NCBI GenBank assembly: GCA_028285415.1
Contig: JANQPF010000009.1
Span: 372,001-436,000 of the forward strand
DNA from: Pseudomonadales bacterium
GTDB taxonomy: Bacteria; Pseudomonadota; Gammaproteobacteria; Pseudomonadales; Azotimanducaceae
Length of the DNA: 64,000 bases
Direction: 5' to 3'
The position numbers and the translations under genes are program-made. Positions 1-36,431 of this stretch are shown in pieces. The notes beneath the pieces were generated by a model, which ran no database searches, was not told the DNA's origin, and saw nothing but the letters and a program-made list of their open reading frames with translations. How positions within the stretch are numbered: position 1 is the first letter of the stretch; every line of letters starts with the position of its first letter.

Positions 1-451
1 CAAAATAGATGAAGCTGAACGGCCGGGCTCGATCGCTGGCGGTGCGGAAGTGATAGTACTCGGTCCAGTTGACGCCATCGCCCACCCGATAGGTGTAGAG
101 CGTATCCGGCTCCAGGTCTGTAAACGTGACGCTGTGGTAGTGCGCCTCGTTGAGGTCGCTCTGCAGATGGCTGGTCTCGGCATCGAACGTCTGCGGCTCC
201 AGCGCCCTGCCGTTGGCATTTGCTATCGCCAGATGCGCTAGACCTTTCTTGACCGAGGTATCTGTTCGCCAGGTAACGGACTGAGTGGTCGCCGGATCGT
301 CTTGCCAGGTCAGAACGACTCGGTCAGGCAGCGGCGTGGGGGCATGGGCGGCTGACGGCGCGTACTGAACCGCCTGCCCATCCTCATGGGCACTGACCTG
401 CCAACAGCAGACACAGGCGACAACCACGAGCCATTGTTTGATTGGGCGCAA
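1..451 (-). CDS. Purple acid phosphatase-like metallophosphoesterase, N-terminal part (cut by window edge)
   Basis: Reading the minus strand gives an open frame that leaves the window at base 1, so only about 150 N-terminal residues are visible. They begin with a signal peptide (KQWLVVVACVCCW near the start) followed by a fibronectin-like domain with WRTDTS, the stretch DLEPDTLYTYRVGDG and YYHFRTASD. This is the usual N-terminal domain of purple acid phosphatases and PhoD-like enzymes, and the last visible residues (FSFIYF) are where the metal-binding domain would begin. No in-frame ATG fits. A TTG at 451 places a basic residue and the hydrophobic core correctly and is my chosen start, but it is uncertain. 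The product is probably secreted or periplasmic. It lies 29 bases downstream of the ThuA-like gene on the same strand. Substrate unknown, catalytic domain not visible. Confidence 0.75.
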   Translation of the reverse strand, partial: MRPIKQWLVVVACVCCWQVSAHEDGQAVQYAPSAAHAPTPLPDRVVLTWQDDPATTQSVTWRTDTSVKKGLAHLAIANANGRALEPQTFDAETSHLQSDLNEAHYHSVTFTDLEPDTLYTYRVGDGVNWTEYYHFRTASDRARPFSFIYF

Positions 452-480
452 AGTCTGCCCAACGACTGCCTGAGGAACCA

Positions 481-1230
481 CTACGCTGCGAGTTCGCCCA
501 CGCTCCACTTGAGTCCGCGGCGCAGGAGCTCGTAAAAGTCCGGCACCGTCCAGGCGCCCCGCTCCATCTTCGGATACACCTCCACCATGGGCTGCATGTC
601 ATATTTCGAACGCGCATGGCCAAGCGTCAGGAACAACACCTCACCTTCGCCGAATTGGCGCAGGTACATGATGGGATGGTCGCGTTCTTCGACCGGCGTC
701 TCCACATAGCCGGGGCATTCGCCACCCCAGCGTGTGGTCAGCAGAACCTCAACGTCGTCGTAGAACTCCGAGACATAGAGTTCGTCCTCGACCAGCATCG
801 GGTCGATGCCCGCGACGAGAGGGTGATCCTCCTTGCCCGGCTCGATGTTGACGGGGTAATACTCGATGGCGGGGTGGCCAATGAACTGACTGCCGAGCAT
901 ATGCATGAACTTCGGCGCCGTGCGCGGACAGGTTACACCCTCGTCGGTGAACTCGAGAATCGAGTTAGTCGCGTGCAAGGCAAACCACTTGTGTCCCGAC
1001 TTCAACCACGCCTCCAGCCGCTCGGTTTCTTCCTCCGTCGGGACAACGTCTACCGTGTAGGTGACGAGGATGTCCGCCGCGGTGATCTCGTCAATCTTGG
1101 AATAGTCTTCGCCGACGTTGACGCGGAATCGCTGGTCCTCGGCGAAGAGTTTCAACATCTCCAACCGAACAAAATCCATATCGTGGTATTTACCGCCACA
1201 TACGAAATAAACGCTGATGGGTCCTGACAT
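481..1230 (-). CDS. ThuA-like domain protein
   Basis: A 249-residue cytoplasmic protein with the glutamine-amidotransferase-like fold of the ThuA (trehalose utilisation) family. Diagnostic stretches are VYFVCGGKYHD at the N-terminus, a conserved FALHATN segment near residue 85, and the C-terminal GEGEVLFLTLGHARS, which corresponds to the family's G-R-V-F-Y-x-x-x-G-H motif. Family members are associated with sugar or glycoside metabolism but their reaction is poorly defined. The start is supported by a purine-rich GGGGGAAG about six bases upstream of the ATG. It probably shares a transcript with the crotonase and TIM-barrel genes upstream, which suggests a carbohydrate-related role; this is inference from context. 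Confidence 0.8.
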   Translation of the reverse strand: MSGPISVYFVCGGKYHDMDFVRLEMLKLFAEDQRFRVNVGEDYSKIDEITAADILVTYTVDVVPTEEETERLEAWLKSGHKWFALHATNSILEFTDEGVTCPRTAPKFMHMLGSQFIGHPAIEYYPVNIEPGKEDHPLVAGIDPMLVEDELYVSEFYDDVEVLLTTRWGGECPGYVETPVEERDHPIMYLRQFGEGEVLFLTLGHARSKYDMQPMVEVYPKMERGAWTVPDFYELLRRGLKWSVGELAA

Positions 1231-1338
1231 GTTTCTTCCCCCTGTCTGAATACGCCCAAGATTTTGACAGCATCAACGATCCGAATCGAGCCCTTCGACC
1301 TGATTCTCCAAGGAACGTCAACTTCCCGGCCGTCACGC

Positions 1339-2211
1339 TCAATTGTCGTCCGGCCGTTCCCCATAATCCTGCCAGGGACGGTCGCGTTCTCGAATCGTCT
1401 CTCTGAACCCTTTGGTCCGGAAGTCCTCGGTCCAGCGATAAGCCTCCTCGGTATGGCGGGTGATGCCATCAAAGAGCGTACCCAGCAGCTGCGTGGTGCC
1501 CAGCCCCATGTTTTCGTAAGCCTGATTGATCAGAAGCTTGTTCAGTGCCAGCTGGTTGGCCGGAATGTTCCGGTAGAGCTTCGCCTCCGCTTCGATGAAC
1601 TCGGAGAGCTCATCCGCCGGGACCACATGGGAAACGAGACCAATGCGATAAGCCGTCTGCGCGTCTATCGCGCGTCCGGTCAGGAGAAACTGCTTCGCAT
1701 GTTCGAGCGTCAGCCGATACACCCACAGCATGGTCGTTGGCGTTCCGTACACACGACTCGGCGCATACCCGATGTGCGCATCCTCCGCCATGTAAAGCTG
1801 ATCGCAGCACAAGATGAGATCCGTGGCCCCGCCAATGGCCCAGCCTTTGATCTCACCCAGAACCGGCTTCGGACATTGCCAGATGCGCATGAACCGACGC
1901 ACGTTGTTCCCCATGAACGCCAGATCCCGCACCGGATCCCACGCCCCTTCTCTATGCTCCACCCGCGGCGCGTCATAGGGTGTATCCCACTCACCCGAGG
2001 TATTCGTCAGATCGTAGCCGGCAGTCAGCGTGTCGCCGACGCCGCGCAACACAACGGCAGACACGTCTCTGGAACGGCTGGCCTTGTCGATGCCATCTTC
2101 TATGCCCTGGATGACGTTGTTGGTAAGCGTGTTTTTCTTTTCCGGCCGGTTGATGGAGATGATGGCAATGCCATCTCTTTCCTCGTAGAGCGTTTCCTCC
2201 TGTGCAGACAC
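1339..2211 (-). CDS. Enoyl-CoA hydratase/isomerase (crotonase) family protein
   Basis: A 290-residue crotonase-fold protein, presumably acting on an acyl-CoA thioester in the cytoplasm. The oxyanion-hole segments are visible: TAGYDL at residues 63-68 and GWAIGGATD at 123-131, followed by CCDQLYMAEDAHIGYAPSR. The two catalytic glutamates of classical enoyl-CoA hydratase appear replaced, the first by Asp131 and the second by Ser152 in the APSR stretch. Simple hydration of crotonyl-type substrates is therefore doubtful, and it may be an isomerase, hydrolase or atypical member. The gene starts with GTG after a G-rich ribosome site. It lies between ThuA-like and TIM-barrel genes on the same strand, with short gaps. 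Confidence 0.85.
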   Translation of the reverse strand: MSAQEETLYEERDGIAIISINRPEKKNTLTNNVIQGIEDGIDKASRSRDVSAVVLRGVGDTLTAGYDLTNTSGEWDTPYDAPRVEHREGAWDPVRDLAFMGNNVRRFMRIWQCPKPVLGEIKGWAIGGATDLILCCDQLYMAEDAHIGYAPSRVYGTPTTMLWVYRLTLEHAKQFLLTGRAIDAQTAYRIGLVSHVVPADELSEFIEAEAKLYRNIPANQLALNKLLINQAYENMGLGTTQLLGTLFDGITRHTEEAYRWTEDFRTKGFRETIRERDRPWQDYGERPDDN

Positions 2212-28986: not shown

Positions 28987-29994
28987 ATGGAACGCAGACG
29001 CATGGGCCGCTACGGCCTCGAAGTCCAATCCCTGTGCCTCGGGACGATGACGTTCGGACTGCAGGTGGACGAACCCGCATCACACGACATCCTCGACAAG
29101 GCGTTTGAGCTCGACCTCCGTTTTCTCGATACCGCCGATGCCTATCCGATGGGCGGCGGCAGGGACCAGACCGGCGATACCGAAGCTATCATCGGTCGCT
29201 GGATGAAGGCGCGCGGCAACCGCCAGGACATTGTGCTCGCGACAAAATGTTTTGCACCCACCCGGCGCGGTCCCAACGCCTGGGGGCTCTCACGTCAGCA
29301 CATCATGGAAGCGATCGACGCCAGTCTGACTCGACTCGGCACGGATCACGTCGACCTCTACCAGGCCCATGGGTTCGATCCGAACACCCCGATCGAAGAG
29401 ACGCTGCGCGCCTTCGAGGATATCGTTCGCGCCGGCAAGGCACGCTACGTCGGCTGCTCAAACTATCCGGCCTGGCGTCTCGGTGAAGCGCTGCGCGCGG
29501 CCGAGCGGATTGGCGTGACGGGCTACGTGAGCGTACAGCCGCGCTACAACCTGCTGTACCGGGATATTGAGGTCGAGCTCCTGCCCCTCTGCCAGGATCA
29601 GGGCGTGGGCGTGATTGTCTACAACCCGCTGGCTGGTGGATTCCTTTCCGGGAAATACAAACCAGGCCAGGGAGTCGAGGCAGGTACCCGGTTTGCGGAC
29701 AACCTGGGCGGGCAGCGCTATCAGGGTCGTTACTGGCAGGAAAGCCATTTCCACGCCGTCGAGACGTTGAAGGCGGTCGTCGAAGCCAGAGGGCTCAACA
29801 TGGTTTCCGTTGCGGTTGCCTGGGTGCTCGCGCAACCCGGCATTACCTCAGCCATCATCGGCGCGTCGCGACCGGAGCAGCTGGACGCCAACGTGGCGGC
29901 GCTGGAGGTTGAGTTCGACAGCGAGCTCACCGAAGCCTGCGAGGCTGCCTGGTGGTCGCTACCCCGCAGACCCGTCGAGGAAGGCTACCGCTAG
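28987..29994 (+). CDS. Aldo/keto reductase
   Basis: A 335-residue enzyme with the family tetrad: Asp and Tyr in LDTADAYPMG, Lys in VLATKCFAP, His in DLYQAHGFD. It shares sub-motifs (TRRGPNAWGLSRQHI and PNTPIEETLRAFED) with the reductase at 25475-26443, so the two are homologues on opposite sides of the same regulatory region. GGAG precedes the ATG. Its stop overlaps the end of the convergent selenoprotein gene by four bases. Confidence 0.92.
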   Translation: MERRRMGRYGLEVQSLCLGTMTFGLQVDEPASHDILDKAFELDLRFLDTADAYPMGGGRDQTGDTEAIIGRWMKARGNRQDIVLATKCFAPTRRGPNAWGLSRQHIMEAIDASLTRLGTDHVDLYQAHGFDPNTPIEETLRAFEDIVRAGKARYVGCSNYPAWRLGEALRAAERIGVTGYVSVQPRYNLLYRDIEVELLPLCQDQGVGVIVYNPLAGGFLSGKYKPGQGVEAGTRFADNLGGQRYQGRYWQESHFHAVETLKAVVEARGLNMVSVAVAWVLAQPGITSAIIGASRPEQLDANVAALEVEFDSELTEACEAAWWSLPRRPVEEGYR

Positions 29995-31118
29995 CGCGCC
30001 AGACCTTCGGTATGCTGCGCGGTGGCAAACGCCGTCAGGTTGAGATCTTCGCGAACCTGCTGGCCCAGTTCCGACGTGGTGTCGTCGTACGGAATGCCGA
30101 TGGAGTCGGCAATACGCACCATGCGTTGAAAGTTTGCGGCAACGCCGGCCGCGTCCACGAGCACGGCCGCGCCGGCCGCATCGGACAGCGCCTGACGCGC
30201 GCCAGGCAGCAACGCTTCATCACGCCTGGCGAGAGCTTCGGCAAATTGCATGAGCTCTGCGCCGAACTCGATACCCTTGTCCGCACTCGCGGCGTCTCCG
30301 CCGACGCCTTGAATGTCGATGTCTGTTTCACTGGACTGCGCGCTCGCACGGAGCATCGATGCATGTGCATTGGTTCAGTAGAAACACTCGTTGACCGCTG
30401 ACACGCGCCCCGCAACCAGTTCCATCTGCAGGCGATTGATCGACCGCGTGTCGTCTTTGAAATAACCGCGCATCTTCTCGAGCGCCAGGTACTGCACGGC
30501 GGCAATTTCCCGCCATTCGCGCAAGGCGTCCGGGACCAGGCTCAACGCACGCACCACATTGGGTGCCCAGCCGGACGCCCACAAGTCGGCTTCGTCGCCA
30601 ACGGCTCCCGCGGGAGCCACCGTAGGCACAAAGCCGATATCGTCGCTGAGGTGGGGCGGCGCGTATCCGCTCGGCGCTCCGGGCTGCGCCTGGGGCAACG
30701 TTTCGACCGGCATACCCAACGCGCGGTGAAACTCATCGATGCTGAGCACGGCAACGACAATGCCCACGAGCTCAACGTAAGCGCCTTTGCCCAAACCGTT
30801 GGCGGCATTGTCATCGATGTACGCCTGGGTAATGCGGGTCTGATCCGTTACCACCCGGTGCGCGGCATCGACAACGCGGCCGGGCAACGCGCCGCTGTGG
30901 GTGTGTTCGCCGGGAAAGTTGTAGGGTGAAAGCGCCTGTTTCCGCGCTGCACAGAACTCACAAACGAGCGCATTGCGACACTCTTGAGCAATGGCAATCC
31001 GCTCCTCACCCGTCCACCAGGTACCTGGAGCAGACAGCTTGTCCCAGTACGCTCGATAAGCCTCGCCAATATCTTCTCTGATGGGATATGGCGCATTGCG
31101 GAAATCGAAGTGTGTCAT
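29991..31118 (-). CDS. Two-domain AhpD-like selenoprotein (C-x-x-C and C-x-x-Sec)
   Basis: The gene is interrupted by one in-frame TGA at 30377-30375. Read through, it encodes 375 residues with two carboxymuconolactone-decarboxylase/AhpD-like domains. The first has a C-x-x-C at C53 and C56 (LVCEFCAARK). The second reads NECFY-TGA-TNAHAS, so the TGA (residue 248) falls exactly on the second redox Cys of the AhpD motif C-x-x-C-x3-H, giving C245-x-x-U248-x3-H252. The reading frame continues with normal sequence for 127 more residues to the true stop. A hairpin with loop CGUGC follows the TGA at the distance expected of a SECIS. GGAGG precedes the ATG, which overlaps the TetR stop (ATGA). Proposed role: peroxidase-type or alkyl-halide/thiol redox enzyme, cytoplasmic. 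A plain nonsense mutation cannot be excluded from one sequence, but the position of the TGA argues strongly against it. Confidence 0.88.
30339..30358 (-). promoter_or_regulatory. SECIS-like hairpin after the UGA of the AhpD-like gene
   Basis: On the minus strand, bases 17-24 after the TGA (CGAUGCUC) pair with bases 30-36 (GAGCGCG): seven pairs with one bulged A and one G-U, closing a CGUGC loop whose second base is G. Distance and loop agree with bacterial selenocysteine insertion elements as I know them: a short stem close behind the UGA with a G in the first two loop positions. The prediction was done by eye. Confidence 0.65.
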
Positions 31119-31729
31119 TGTGTCGCCTCCCGTGACTTTGCGGATAAAGTGGTCAGGGTTTCGAGCGCCCGACCCACCCCTTGTGTAAACGAACCACCCT
31201 GCTTGACGCGAGAAATGAGGCTGGCGCCCTGAAAGGCGGCCGTATAGAGGCGCGCCATGTCGCGAGAATCGACGCGTTCGCCAAGCTCCCCTGCCGCCTT
31301 TGCCCGCTCGAAGTTCTCGAACAGCGCATCTTCAATCACCTGCAGCTCTGCTTCGAGGAAGGCAGCAAGCTCCTGGTCGTTCATGAGTTGCGCCTGGGCC
31401 ATCGCAACGCCCAGCAGGCACCCCTTGTGCTCGGTGGCATTGAGCCTCGCGATTGTGCCGATCACAGCGTTGGCGGCGCTCATCGGTGAGTTCCGATCCG
31501 AAAGGTTGCCAAACAGCCGTTTCGTCACCGTGTCTGTGTAGCGTTGGATGGCACTGAAATACAGCTGGCGCTTGTTGCCGAACGTGTCATAGAGACTTTT
31601 TGCGCCGAGTCCCATACGGCCCTGCAAGTCCGCCATGCTGGTGGCCGCGTAGCCTTTTTCCCAGAAGAGCAGCATCGCCTCGTCGAGCGCCGCTTCGGGC
31701 AGAAACTGTTTGTCCGGTCCTCTCGCCAT
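31115..31729 (-). CDS. TetR-family transcriptional regulator
   Basis: A 204-residue regulator with an N-terminal helix-turn-helix: FLPEAALDEAMLLFWEKGYA, TSMADLQGRMGLGAKSLYDTFGNKRQLY (residues 8-56). The C-terminal region resembles the branch with the KGCLLGVAMAQ segment found in AcrR/NemR-like repressors of electrophile or xenobiotic detoxification. Its stop overlaps the AhpD-like selenoprotein start, making a two-gene unit; a perfect 12-base palindrome sits upstream, before the divergent GST gene. It probably represses itself, the selenoprotein and possibly the GST. Inducer unknown. Confidence 0.9.
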   Translation of the reverse strand: MARGPDKQFLPEAALDEAMLLFWEKGYAATSMADLQGRMGLGAKSLYDTFGNKRQLYFSAIQRYTDTVTKRLFGNLSDRNSPMSAANAVIGTIARLNATEHKGCLLGVAMAQAQLMNDQELAAFLEAELQVIEDALFENFERAKAAGELGERVDSRDMARLYTAAFQGASLISRVKQGGSFTQGVGRALETLTTLSAKSREATQ

Positions 31730-32618: not shown

Positions 32619-32651
32619 AGTCTAAACACTCGATGGAATGCGGAGGCACCC

Positions 32652-34172
32652 ATGTATCGAACAACAGGGAAGAATCGTGTCCGGCGCGGTCTGCTGGCCT
32701 TTGCCGGCCTTCTTGTGGCAGCGCCGCACGCGTTGGCAATCAACGTGTCGGTCCAGACCACAGACTGCGAGGGATCAACGGGTTTCGCCTCCTTCGAATC
32801 CACGCGTCTGGCGAAAATCCAGGATGCCCCCTGCGCAGACCCGGCCGATCGCTCGAAGAAGCTCAAGCAGGTCATGCTGCACACCGATCGCCCGCTGATG
32901 CAGTACGAAGTGATTACGGTCGATACTGCGGGCAGCGAGAGCATCATGAACCAGATCAAGGGCATCTCGGACGCGGAGCTCGAAAACCTCAACCGGCCGG
33001 ACATATTGATCGAGCAGAACACGACAACAAGACGTATCACCCCGCCACCCGCTTCGCCCACGCGGGGTACGACCGAGCAGAGCGATGTCAGCCCGCCAGA
33101 GCAGGCTGTCGCGCCGCCGCCGCAGATCGAAGTGTCCGATCCACCGATCACCCGCACCCGTTCGATGACGAACGTCATCACGGAGCCGGGGCTCACCCAG
33201 CGCCAGATCATCGGCACCGTAAGGTCCGCAAACAGCGTCGTTTCGCTGACCGTCAACGGACGCAGCCAGCAGCTTTCTGAACACGGCCTTTTCGAAGCCG
33301 CAGTCACAATGACCAATGAACGTACGCCTGTGACGATCATCGCGGTCGACAACCACGGCGCGTCGAGCAAAGTCGAGTTTCATCTCGTCAGGTCGTCGCC
33401 TGCGCCTGAAAGCAGCACCGCATCGAGCACTTTCGGCAATTATCACGCGCTGGTCATTGCCAACGCGGACTACGAAAAGCTGGACGATCTCGTCACCCCG
33501 CTGAACGACGGCCGCGAGATTGCGAGAATCCTTGCGGACAATTACGGGTTCAGCGTGACCACGCTCTTCAACGCCAGCCGCTACGACATCATGTCGACCA
33601 TGAACGATCTGCGCCGGGATCTGACCGAGAACGATAACCTGCTCATCTACTTTGCCGGCCATGGCGCATACGACAAGGCCAACAACCGGGGGCACTGGCT
33701 GCCTGTGGATGCGGAGCACAACAGCACCGCCAACTGGGTATCCACCATTGACGTCACGGACATCGTGAACGCCATGTCTGCCCGCCATATCCTTGTCGTC
33801 GCAGACTCCTGCTACTCCGGTGCGCTGACACGCTCCGAGCACACCGAGCTCGACCCGGGCATGTCGGATGACCTGCGCAGCCGGTGGCTGCAGGCCGTTG
33901 CCAAGACCCGCTCCCGCCACCTGCTCACATCGGGCGGCATCAAACCGGTCGTAGACGACGGCGGCAACGGTCATTCGGTATTTGCGAACGCCTTGATTGA
34001 GGTGCTCAGCGGCGGCGTTGGGATCATCGAAAGCTCGACGATCTATCACCAGGTGAACGCGCTGGTCAAAGAACGCTCGAAGACGCTCGCCCTCGATCAG
34101 AACCCGCGCTATGCAAAACTGAAACGCACCGGTCACGAGTTCGGCGAATTCCTGATGATCTCCAGGCAATAG
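32652..34172 (+). CDS. Exported caspase-like (peptidase C14) protein
   Basis: A 506-residue protein. Residues 11-30 form a signal peptide ending at APHALA. Residues 33-180 are low-complexity and Pro/Thr-rich without a recognised domain, and 186-246 look like an immunoglobulin-type beta domain (GTVRSANSVVSLTVNG). Residues 263-500 are a caspase-like domain with the catalytic His337 in YFAGHGAY and Cys387 in VVADSCYSG. The remainder of the fold (YHALVIANADYEKLDDL) fits. The family cleaves after Arg, Lys or Asp; specificity is not visible. GGAGG lies six bases before the ATG. The kinase gene begins seven bases after the stop, so the three genes form one unit. Confidence 0.9.
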   Translation: MYRTTGKNRVRRGLLAFAGLLVAAPHALAINVSVQTTDCEGSTGFASFESTRLAKIQDAPCADPADRSKKLKQVMLHTDRPLMQYEVITVDTAGSESIMNQIKGISDAELENLNRPDILIEQNTTTRRITPPPASPTRGTTEQSDVSPPEQAVAPPPQIEVSDPPITRTRSMTNVITEPGLTQRQIIGTVRSANSVVSLTVNGRSQQLSEHGLFEAAVTMTNERTPVTIIAVDNHGASSKVEFHLVRSSPAPESSTASSTFGNYHALVIANADYEKLDDLVTPLNDGREIARILADNYGFSVTTLFNASRYDIMSTMNDLRRDLTENDNLLIYFAGHGAYDKANNRGHWLPVDAEHNSTANWVSTIDVTDIVNAMSARHILVVADSCYSGALTRSEHTELDPGMSDDLRSRWLQAVAKTRSRHLLTSGGIKPVVDDGGNGHSVFANALIEVLSGGVGIIESSTIYHQVNALVKERSKTLALDQNPRYAKLKRTGHEFGEFLMISRQ

Positions 34173-34179
34173 ACGCTGA

Positions 34180-35805
34180 ATGGGAAACGTCGAAGAAGCA
34201 CTGACCCGGTTTTCCGCCGGGGAAATGGAGGAGGACGAACTTCGCACCATCGTGCTGACGGCGCTACAACGTGGCTCGCGAGCCGAAGTGACATCAATCA
34301 TTCAGGACGCTGCGCAGACCGAAACGCTGCAGGAAGTTTGCGCACGTCTGATGAGAGACATGCTGCAGGCTGACGCGACGCCAGAACCCCCAACCCCGAT
34401 CGCCTATGAGGGCATGGTGGTCCGAGATCGATTCATCCTGGGCAAAGAGATAGGCCGCGGCGGCATGGGGGTTGTCTATCGCGCGCGCGATCTGCGCCGC
34501 GTGGAAGCCGACGATCGACACAGTGAAGTTGCCATCAAGGTGATGAACCAGACCCTGCAGCACCACCCCGACGCACTGATGACGCTGCAGCGTGAAGCGC
34601 GGCGAGCCCAACAGCTGGCACATCCGAACATTGCCACCGTGTTCGATTTCGACCGGGAAGGTGACATCGCGTATCTCTGCATGGAGCTGCTCGAGGGCAA
34701 ACCGCTGAGCGAACTCCTCAAGGAGGAGACCCTGCGCCCCGTCGACTTTTCGCTCTCCATCATCCGCGGCATCTGTGCTGGACTCGAGTATGCGCACAAG
34801 TCAGGCATTGTTCATGCCGACTTGAAGCCGGGCAACATATTCCTCACGCGCAACAACGTCGTGAAGATTCTCGACTTCGGTCTCGCCCGCACGGTGCGCG
34901 TCTCCGACGAAACATCGGGCACGGAAACGTCGTTCGACGCCGGCCGGTGGAACGCCATGACACCGGCCTACGCAAGCCCGGAAATGTTCGCGCGCCAGGA
35001 ACCGGATCCCTGCGACGACATCTACGGTCTCGCCTGTGTCAGCTACGAGCTGCTCTCCGGCCATCACCCGTTTGAGCGCCTGACCGCAACCCGCGCCCGG
35101 GAAGACGGTTTGAGCGTCAAGCCGATACGAGGGTTGTCGCGGCGGCAGAACAAGACGCTGAAAGATGCGCTCGCTTTCGAGCGCGAAGACCGCATTGCCA
35201 CCGTCGCCGAGTTCCTGGACGGGTTGATGAAGCCGAAAAGCGCGGCGCCTACCGTCGCCGTCACGACCATAGGGGTTGCCGCGGTGCTTGCGGTCGTCGG
35301 CGTGACCTGGCTCTTCATCAACGCAGGCGGAGGCTATACCGGAGATCCGCTCGACAGTGGGCTCAATCGAGATGTGCGGGAGCTGCCCGCGACGGACGCC
35401 GAGCCAGGCGCGTCAGACCTGATCTCCGAGCCTGGCACGGACGATGCCAACTTTGACGACGTCAGCGCGCCCGAGGGGAACCTGAGTCGTGAGAGTCAGG
35501 AGAGCATTCAGCGTATTCTGGAAATTGCCGACCTGCACCTCGCGATGCGGCGTTTCGTCACCCCTTCGGGAAGTAACGCCGCTGAAGCGTATCTGGCGGT
35601 AACGACGCTCGAGCCTTCGAATCAGCGCGCCAGAAACGGCCTCGGTCAAGTGATCGACGGTGTCGTGGCCGAAGCCCGCGTGCTGGCGCGAAACGGTGAC
35701 CGTGAGGGGGCCATCACCCTGCTCGAGACCGCCCTGTCCCAACTCCCCGATGATCAGGAACTCCAGGCAGCCCAAAGTGAGCTGATGTCAGCCGACGCAC
35801 TTTGA
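34180..35805 (+). CDS. Membrane-bound Ser/Thr protein kinase with C-terminal repeat region
   Basis: A 541-residue kinase. Residues 1-75 are a helical N-terminal region. The kinase domain at 83-350 has a P-loop GRGGMGVVY at 92-100, Lys120 in VAIK, a catalytic loop HADLKPGN at 212-219, DFG at 232-234 and SPE near 266-268. The Arg before the catalytic Asp is Ala, so it is a non-RD kinase. Residues 358-381 are one membrane helix (TIGVAAVLAVVGVTWLFI). The remainder, outside the membrane, holds helical repeats (LAVTTLEPSNQRARNGLGQVI) that look like TPR. It starts seven bases after the caspase-like gene and has only a weak ribosome site; the ECF sigma gene follows. Confidence 0.93.
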   Translation: MGNVEEALTRFSAGEMEEDELRTIVLTALQRGSRAEVTSIIQDAAQTETLQEVCARLMRDMLQADATPEPPTPIAYEGMVVRDRFILGKEIGRGGMGVVYRARDLRRVEADDRHSEVAIKVMNQTLQHHPDALMTLQREARRAQQLAHPNIATVFDFDREGDIAYLCMELLEGKPLSELLKEETLRPVDFSLSIIRGICAGLEYAHKSGIVHADLKPGNIFLTRNNVVKILDFGLARTVRVSDETSGTETSFDAGRWNAMTPAYASPEMFARQEPDPCDDIYGLACVSYELLSGHHPFERLTATRAREDGLSVKPIRGLSRRQNKTLKDALAFEREDRIATVAEFLDGLMKPKSAAPTVAVTTIGVAAVLAVVGVTWLFINAGGGYTGDPLDSGLNRDVRELPATDAEPGASDLISEPGTDDANFDDVSAPEGNLSRESQESIQRILEIADLHLAMRRFVTPSGSNAAEAYLAVTTLEPSNQRARNGLGQVIDGVVAEARVLARNGDREGAITLLETALSQLPDDQELQAAQSELMSADAL

Positions 35806-35852
35806 GGTCACCCTCAGAGCGACTATGCTTCGTCGGGCAAACGGAGGGGACA

Positions 35853-36431
35853 ATGTCCACAGAAGACGAAGACAGTGCAACGGTGATTGCGTTGCTGAGA
35901 GATGCGGAATCGGGTGATCAGGCCGCTTTCAACAAGCTCGTTGGTGTTGTCTATCCCGAACTCAAACGGCTCGCTCAGTACCAGCTCGGCAAGGAGCGCG
36001 CCGACCACACCTTGAGCGCGACGGCCATCGTGCACGAAGCGTACGAGCGCCTCTCCTCCCTGGATGGCCCGTGGAACAACAAAGCCCACTTCATGCGCAC
36101 GGCAGCGCGCATCATGCGTCATCTGCTGGTCGACTATGCGCGGCGTCGCAACGCCGACAAGCGCGGCGCGGGCGCCAATCCGGTCACACTCGATGCCGAG
36201 CATCTGCAGACTCCGGCGGATCAGCTCGCCATCCTGCGCCTGGAAGACGCGCTGGAGGAAATGGCGGCCATCGATCCACGTCTCGAGCGCATCGTGGAGT
36301 GCCGTATGTTTGCCGGCCTGACCGTCGCTGAAACTGCAGAGGCGCTGGACATGAGCGTGCGCACCGTGGAGCGCGACTGGCAGCGCGCCCGGGGGTACAT
36401 CAATCGCGCGCTTGGCAACACTGGGGATTGA
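35853..36431 (+). CDS. ECF-type RNA polymerase sigma factor
   Basis: A 192-residue sigma-70 family member of the ECF type often found beside Ser/Thr kinases (I recognise it as TIGR02999-like). Region 2 includes GDQAAFNKLVGVVYPELKRLAQYQL and HTLSATAIVHEAYERL, and region 4 the segment GLTVAETAEALDMSVRTVERDWQRARGYI. I set the start at an ATG with a strong GGAGGGGA immediately upstream; an earlier in-frame ATG is unsupported. It probably directs RNA polymerase to a stress regulon, with the kinase controlling it. It is not accompanied by an anti-sigma gene. Confidence 0.9.
   Translation: MSTEDEDSATVIALLRDAESGDQAAFNKLVGVVYPELKRLAQYQLGKERADHTLSATAIVHEAYERLSSLDGPWNNKAHFMRTAARIMRHLLVDYARRRNADKRGAGANPVTLDAEHLQTPADQLAILRLEDALEEMAAIDPRLERIVECRMFAGLTVAETAEALDMSVRTVERDWQRARGYINRALGNTGD

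Follow-up and report, generated by a model that had tools for sequence, protein, structure and literature searches.

An AhpD-related selenoprotein gene with an in-frame UGA codon and two predicted AhpD-fold domains

Does an in-frame UGA codon on the minus strand encode selenocysteine (Sec), and, if so, what kind of protein results? The question is raised by a locus within the window, i.e., the whole 64,000-nucleotide stretch of DNA that was analyzed (G+C content 59.8%). An initial annotation of this DNA had proposed an AhpD-like, two-domain selenoprotein, with Sec at the resolving position and asymmetric redox sites. The gene and its UGA codon are located as follows:

29991 to 31118, minus strand: selenoprotein gene of family NF041238, 375 codons, UGA read as Sec248 (NCBIfam score 450.7 bits, cut-off 175)
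30375 to 30377, minus strand: UGA codon for Sec248

The reading frame begins with an ATG at 31118, runs for 247 codons to the TGA at 30377-30375, and continues for another 127 codons, in agreement with the initial annotation. The translation contains C53-x-x-C56, C245, U248, and H252, and thus all of the motif residues that had been claimed, the first-domain C-x-x-C among them. It had also been foreseen that standard calling would split the gene, and the ORF list indeed holds two separate ORFs, divided at this TGA. From base composition, an open run of 127 codons would occur by chance with p of about 0.017. The length of the open frame was dropped as proof of recoding, since 27 TGA codons of the window (that of Sec248 included) have no fewer than 120 open codons on one side and no fewer than 90 on the other. 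Rather, it is homology that raises this TGA frame above chance, because the pieces before and after the UGA hit successive stretches of one family model.

This model is NF041238 (AhpD_rel_CFYUT), labeled "alkylhydroperoxidase-related (seleno)protein", which the joined protein matches over residues 13-365; the CFYUT motif with its Sec codon is found in the window gene. In a review from 2026, NF041238 appears under the name "AhpD-related protein (hypothetical protein 1, Sargasso Sea metagenome)" with the motif CxxU (PMC13188914). In the 2005 Sargasso Sea selenoproteome, hypothetical protein 1 is described as four CXXU sequences that lack functional evidence (PMC1088965). Given the curated model and a review that equates it with hypothetical protein 1, the family was already known, and the window gene is one more copy of a catalogued selenoprotein family, not a new kind. 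No description of the function of the family was found in the accessible portions of the literature searched.

The genome that contains the window has three full-length family copies (on contigs C2, C26, and C15) with a single TGA apiece; this number suggests that the protein is of importance to its host, a relative of uncultured gammaproteobacteria. Among the best 80 of 103 matching loci, 79 were retained; by their MAG titles, two belong to Rubrivivax, six are assigned to Proteobacteria only, and the rest belong to Gammaproteobacteria or to groups that we take to be gammaproteobacterial. A search of a plasmid collection returned no match. Three loci (L051, L064, and L070) carry two UGA-containing copies with starts 2.5-4.8 kb apart.

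The UGA itself is conserved. In 90 aligned rows picked regardless of codon, the window gene included, TGA occupies the Sec248 codon in every row, and with such conservation a sequence error at 30377-30375 is unlikely. Across 146 related genomes there are 96 family matches over the cut-off, and 93 of them have an in-frame TGA (one has a TAA as well); these matches were listed by number of stops, and the position was checked in the fetched sequences. The remaining three are two N-terminal fragments that end short of the site and one Cys form (L128, G030:C41), which has TGC at the Sec248 codon. It is the sole Cys form found, and it supplies the homolog with Cys at residue 248 that the initial annotation had named as a check. 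The genome of L128 also carries forms with UGA, as well as a selA match over the cut-off. A few copies are irregular: L081 has a second in-frame TGA at homolog codon 147, in the inter-domain linker, where a sequencing error or a broken copy is possible, and L180 (G023:C95), L138, and L139 are broken by an extra TAA or a frameshift between the halves, perhaps through assembly errors or as decaying paralogs.

Downstream of the UGA lies a candidate recoding signal:

30342 to 30354, minus strand: SECIS-like apical hairpin GCUC-CGUGC-GAGC, nucleotides 24-36 counted from the U of the UGA

Codon use in each alignment column was compared with the overall usage of the same genes (90 rows; columns filled in at least 70). 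Codons 254 and 256-259, which lie 6 and 8-11 codons past the UGA, show the five strongest synonymous constraints of the gene. For instance, CTC encodes Leu256 in 84/90 rows (20% expected), and CGT encodes Arg257 in 72/78 (18% expected). Codons 255-259 read AUG-CUC-CGU-GYG-AGC, which yields a 4-bp stem (GCUC/GAGC) capped by a loop of 5 nt; this loop begins 24 nt past the UGA. The four stem pairs hold in 104, 103, 104, and 104 of 104 distinct sequences, respectively. In the larger set of 140 rows the whole stem forms in 138, the failures being L166 and the own-genome paralog L126, and loop position 1 or 2 is a G in 139. Stem and loop G occur together at 2.0% of 40,824 codon positions (112 gene copies, true sites included). 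Published criteria for bacterial SECIS elements are a loop of 3-9 nt, a stem of 4-16 bp, a G at loop position 1 or 2, a distance of 16-37 nt after the UGA, and an energy of at most -7.5 (PMC13188914). The window hairpin falls within each of these limits, with a stem of 4 bp, a loop of 5 nt whose second position is G, a distance of 24 nt, and an energy of -9 kcal/mol (48 nt); the energy limit of -7.5 kcal/mol is reached by 121/140 rows and missed by 19/140.

Other measures of the hairpin speak against it or add little. It is less stable than most shuffled sequences (z +1.28; 185/200 fold as well), and its stem shows almost no covariation: the C27-G33 pair is replaced by U-A in 6/104 sequences, and independent columns already pair at 0.95-1.0. 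An Rfam search for SECIS gave six chance-level matches, none over the gathering score, and 7 of the 27 flanked TGA codons in the window, Sec248 included, have some hairpin of at least 5 pairs at SECIS distance. The case for a SECIS-like element is thus carried by the synonymous constraint together with the Cys-form control, as L128 is without the stem, and on these grounds the search for such an element after the UGA, which had been recommended, gave a positive answer.

The same genome encodes the machinery for Sec insertion. On contig C4, tRNA-Sec (C4:3571-3659, 73.6 bits; ARAGORN anticodon tca), selB (C4:3703-5529, 408.8 bits), and selA (C4:5568-6863, 523.4 bits) lie side by side, and selD is found on C21 (271 bits); all four score over their cut-offs. 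These are the genes whose presence the initial annotation had made a further check. The G+C content of C4 (58.7%, from 12,000 of 14,452 bases) is near that of the window. Among the 146 genomes, a selA match (E ≤ 0.001) was found in 56/62 with an over-cut-off family match vs. 26/84 without one (Fisher p 1.8e-13, kinship uncorrected). In the family-bearing genomes selA exceeds its own cut-off in 52/62, four of the 56 matches being sub-cut-off fragments, and one of the 26 matches in family-less genomes is a fragment. No selA match was found in 6/62 family-bearing genomes; four of these are 58-73% complete, and the other two are G009 (96% complete, about 520 contigs) and G031 (90%, about 390 contigs). 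At L140, the family member (G101:C321:378-1463) is closely followed by selA (C321:1813-3195), and both genes share a strand. At L001, a phage-type integrase gene (159-1418, minus strand) is directly downstream of tRNA-Sec (1498-1590, minus strand), an arrangement resembling that of genomic islands that target selC.

Family match, conserved UGA, Sec machinery, and SECIS-like element together uphold the claim of a selenoprotein, and the product of 29991-31118 is very probably genuine in this respect, with UGA248 read as Sec. Judging from conservation, decoding would proceed through SelB and tRNA-Sec, aided by the hairpin.

Immediately upstream of the selenoprotein gene is a putative regulator:

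31115 to 31729, minus strand: TetR-family regulator (ORF, PF00440), stop overlapping the selenoprotein start (ATGA)

This stop/start overlap suggests that the two genes may be co-transcribed in the window. A search of 81 related loci for this TetR protein (E 1e-8) gave no match. Window neighbors recur in 12/81 loci at 26-36% identity, in addition to one aldo/keto reductase at 76% in L090 (nine queries, of which the caspase query does not count as a test; locus flanks were unequal in length). No conserved neighborhood was found, as no neighbor cluster occurs in more than 12/79 loci, and a conserved operon was therefore dropped as a guide to function. Elsewhere in the window, at 32649-36431 on the plus strand, genes for a caspase-like (Peptidase_C14) protein, a Ser/Thr kinase with TPR, and an ECF sigma factor stand in a row.

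According to protein structure predictions, the selenoprotein has two domains:

30690 to 31118, minus strand: N-terminal AhpD-fold domain, residues 1-143, with C53, C56, H72, and H87
30069 to 30563, minus strand: C-terminal AhpD-fold domain, approximately residues 186-350, with the relay E233/C245/Y247/U248/H252

The full AlphaFold2 model (53 sequences, Cys substituted for Sec) has a pLDDT of 93.5 and a pTM of 0.93, and residues 1-143 modeled by themselves have a pLDDT of 93.3. On reading the full model, helices appear in matching order in both halves. Foldseek placed AhpD-like peroxidase-related chains at the top for the full model, with no match reaching E 0.001; for residues 1-143 the top 11 matches were all AhpD-like (E 0.02-0.14, rmsd 8-9 Å). 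By sequence the halves are barely alike; their hhalign alignment, which sets C-x-x-C opposite C-x-x-U, has a probability of 1.2% and E 0.046. Since this sequence evidence of duplication is weak, the two-AhpD-domain reading rests on the two predicted structures.

The relay residues of the C-terminal domain (E233, C245, Y247, U248, and H252) are unchanged in 90/90 rows. Their spacing is that of Glu36, Cys48, Tyr50, Cys51, and His55 in PA0269 and of Glu118, Cys130, His132, Cys133, and His137 in Mycobacterium tuberculosis AhpD (PMC3141380). Structural matches to 3c1l and other AhpD-like chains point the same way, and the AhpD profiles all score below their cut-offs (TIGR01926, 41.8 vs. 81.8; TIGR00778, 23.2 vs. 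27.8; PF02627, 22.3 vs. 23). At the position of U248 the M. tuberculosis protein has Cys133, described as the exposed Cys by which AhpC is attacked, Cys130 being partly buried (PMC6626918). The term "resolving position" for U248, used in the initial annotation, is doubtful given this placement. On the other hand, the first Cys is reported as the more important one in B. thailandensis (PMC6626918), and Sestrin2 retains the first Cys only (PMC4674687). In light of these opposing data, the first attacker may be either C245 or U248. By analogy with AhpD, catalysis of the AhpD type at U248 appears quite likely.

The N-terminal domain looks AhpD-folded without the AhpD relay, as I41 stands where the Glu is due (12 residues before C53) and K60 where the His is due (4 after C56). 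C53 and C56 are invariant in the 90 closer rows. In the set of 140 distinct rows, C-x-x-C is present in 132, among which H72 is found in 131 and H87 in all 132, the exception for H72 being L090. The eight rows that lack C-x-x-C never have H72, and only one of them (L133) has H87; R59 and R95 are each kept in only 2/8 of these, L63 and S64 in 4/8, and R40, R48, A50, L78, E116, and D128 in 8/8. Two of the eight, L167 and L171, are nested among C-x-x-C rows and carry T at 56, Y at 72, and R at 87, with C53 kept. On the tree the co-loss needs four changes, at least two of them forced by well-supported branches; L132 and L133 sit on long branches. This pattern comes from eight rows, and the alignment at position 72 is unsure where residues are deleted. 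Searches of the domain against PDB sequences and Pfam gave chance-like matches only (best, a chaperonin at 0.0031 and Glyco_hydro_115 at 0.004), and none of the zinc-family profiles matches it convincingly. The joint loss of C53/C56, H72, and mostly H87 nevertheless reads as that of a Cys2His2, metal-like unit, and we put at about even the chance that the four residues form one such site, of metal rather than redox type. The co-loss thereby predicts a metal site in a domain otherwise taken for a redox C-x-x-C domain.

Taken together, the explanation that we favor, and hold to be probable, is a Sec-containing thiol/selenol oxidoreductase in which two AhpD-fold domains are fused, the first of the metal type. 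The second domain would be the catalytic one. As in AhpD, U248, aided by a proton relay of E233, Y247, and H252, would attack a hydroperoxide or an oxidized partner protein, and the resulting C245-U248 selenylsulfide would be reduced by a cellular dithiol, regenerating the enzyme. The first domain would be a modified AhpD domain whose C53/C56/H72/H87 site, judging from the co-loss, more likely binds a metal (e.g., Zn) than serves as a redox dithiol. A bolder proposal, which we advance only tentatively, is that a duplicated AhpD domain turned into a Cys2His2 metal site that lies next to the Sec-based AhpD active site and tunes it, its C-x-x-C having no redox role, and that the substrate is perhaps not a simple hydroperoxide.

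The two sites could instead act in series, the C53-x-x-C56 dithiol reducing the C245-U248 selenylsulfide within one chain. This would account for the invariance of C53 and C56 in the closer rows and for their register with C245 and U248 in the weak hhalign match. However, the first domain has neither the relay Glu nor the relay His, and the eight rows that have lost its C-x-x-C, along with H72 and in most cases H87, still keep the C-x-x-U site, which argues that the Sec site is independent of C53/C56 in those rows. A reaction in series is therefore unlikely. For the same reasons the "asymmetric redox sites" of the initial annotation are doubtful, a metal-type first site being the better fit, and of its overall description the AhpD-like, two-domain selenoprotein stands.

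Less likely still is a substrate other than a peroxide, with the protein acting, as the debrominase Bmp8 does, as a reductive dehalogenase or other reductase of organic electrophiles built on an AhpD fold. Bmp8 chains (6ohj and 6ohi) appear at Foldseek ranks 8, 10, and 13 with a probability of 0.99, several diverged copies per genome could mean several substrates, and deiodinases use selenium. However, plain peroxidase-related chains rank above Bmp8, whose matches have E 0.25-0.33 with 13-14% identity, and no conserved neighborhood was found that points to dehalogenation, the neighbor families being unnamed. Finally, that the UGA is a true stop separating two genes or marking a pseudogene is very improbable: UGA is a stop in table 11 and an open frame past it could arise by chance, but the codon is shared by all 90 rows with protein conserved on both sides, the SECIS-like constraint follows it, and the Sec machinery is encoded in the genome. 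The additions made here to a catalogued family comprise a SECIS signal seen across the family, with the Cys form as its control, the relay assignment, which makes peroxidase activity of the family directly testable, and the four-residue co-loss.

Within NF041238, the window gene shares the whole-length match, the CFYUT motif, and CxxU, and no feature was found to set it apart from the family. Bmp8 has an AhpD-like fold in common with the window protein by Foldseek; its chain of 187 residues is about half as long, and its chemistry is Cys-based, the title of a structure entry naming a C82A mutant. Sestrins are similar in architecture: human Sestrin2 (SESN2) has two AhpD-fold domains in one chain, with the relay in only one of them (PMC4674687). 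The relay lies in the second domain of the window protein, in contrast to the first domain of Sestrin, and only the window protein has Sec. Sestrins are further marked by an N-terminal catalytic Cys and a C-terminal acidic hinge with DDYDY (PMC11429811); the window protein has its relay in the C-terminal domain, and DDYDY is absent from its sequence. Sestrin chain 5t0n_A appears at Foldseek rank 33 (404 columns, TM 0.39-0.40, E 3.1, probability 0.16, rmsd 16.1), and no evidence of common descent was found. There is also likeness to the AhpD-like peroxidase-related proteins (TIGR01926; 2prr, 3c1l, 6k40) and M. tuberculosis AhpD, with which the second domain shares its predicted fold and five-residue relay, and from which the window protein differs in that Sec replaces the second Cys and an additional N-terminal AhpD-fold domain, devoid of the relay, precedes it.
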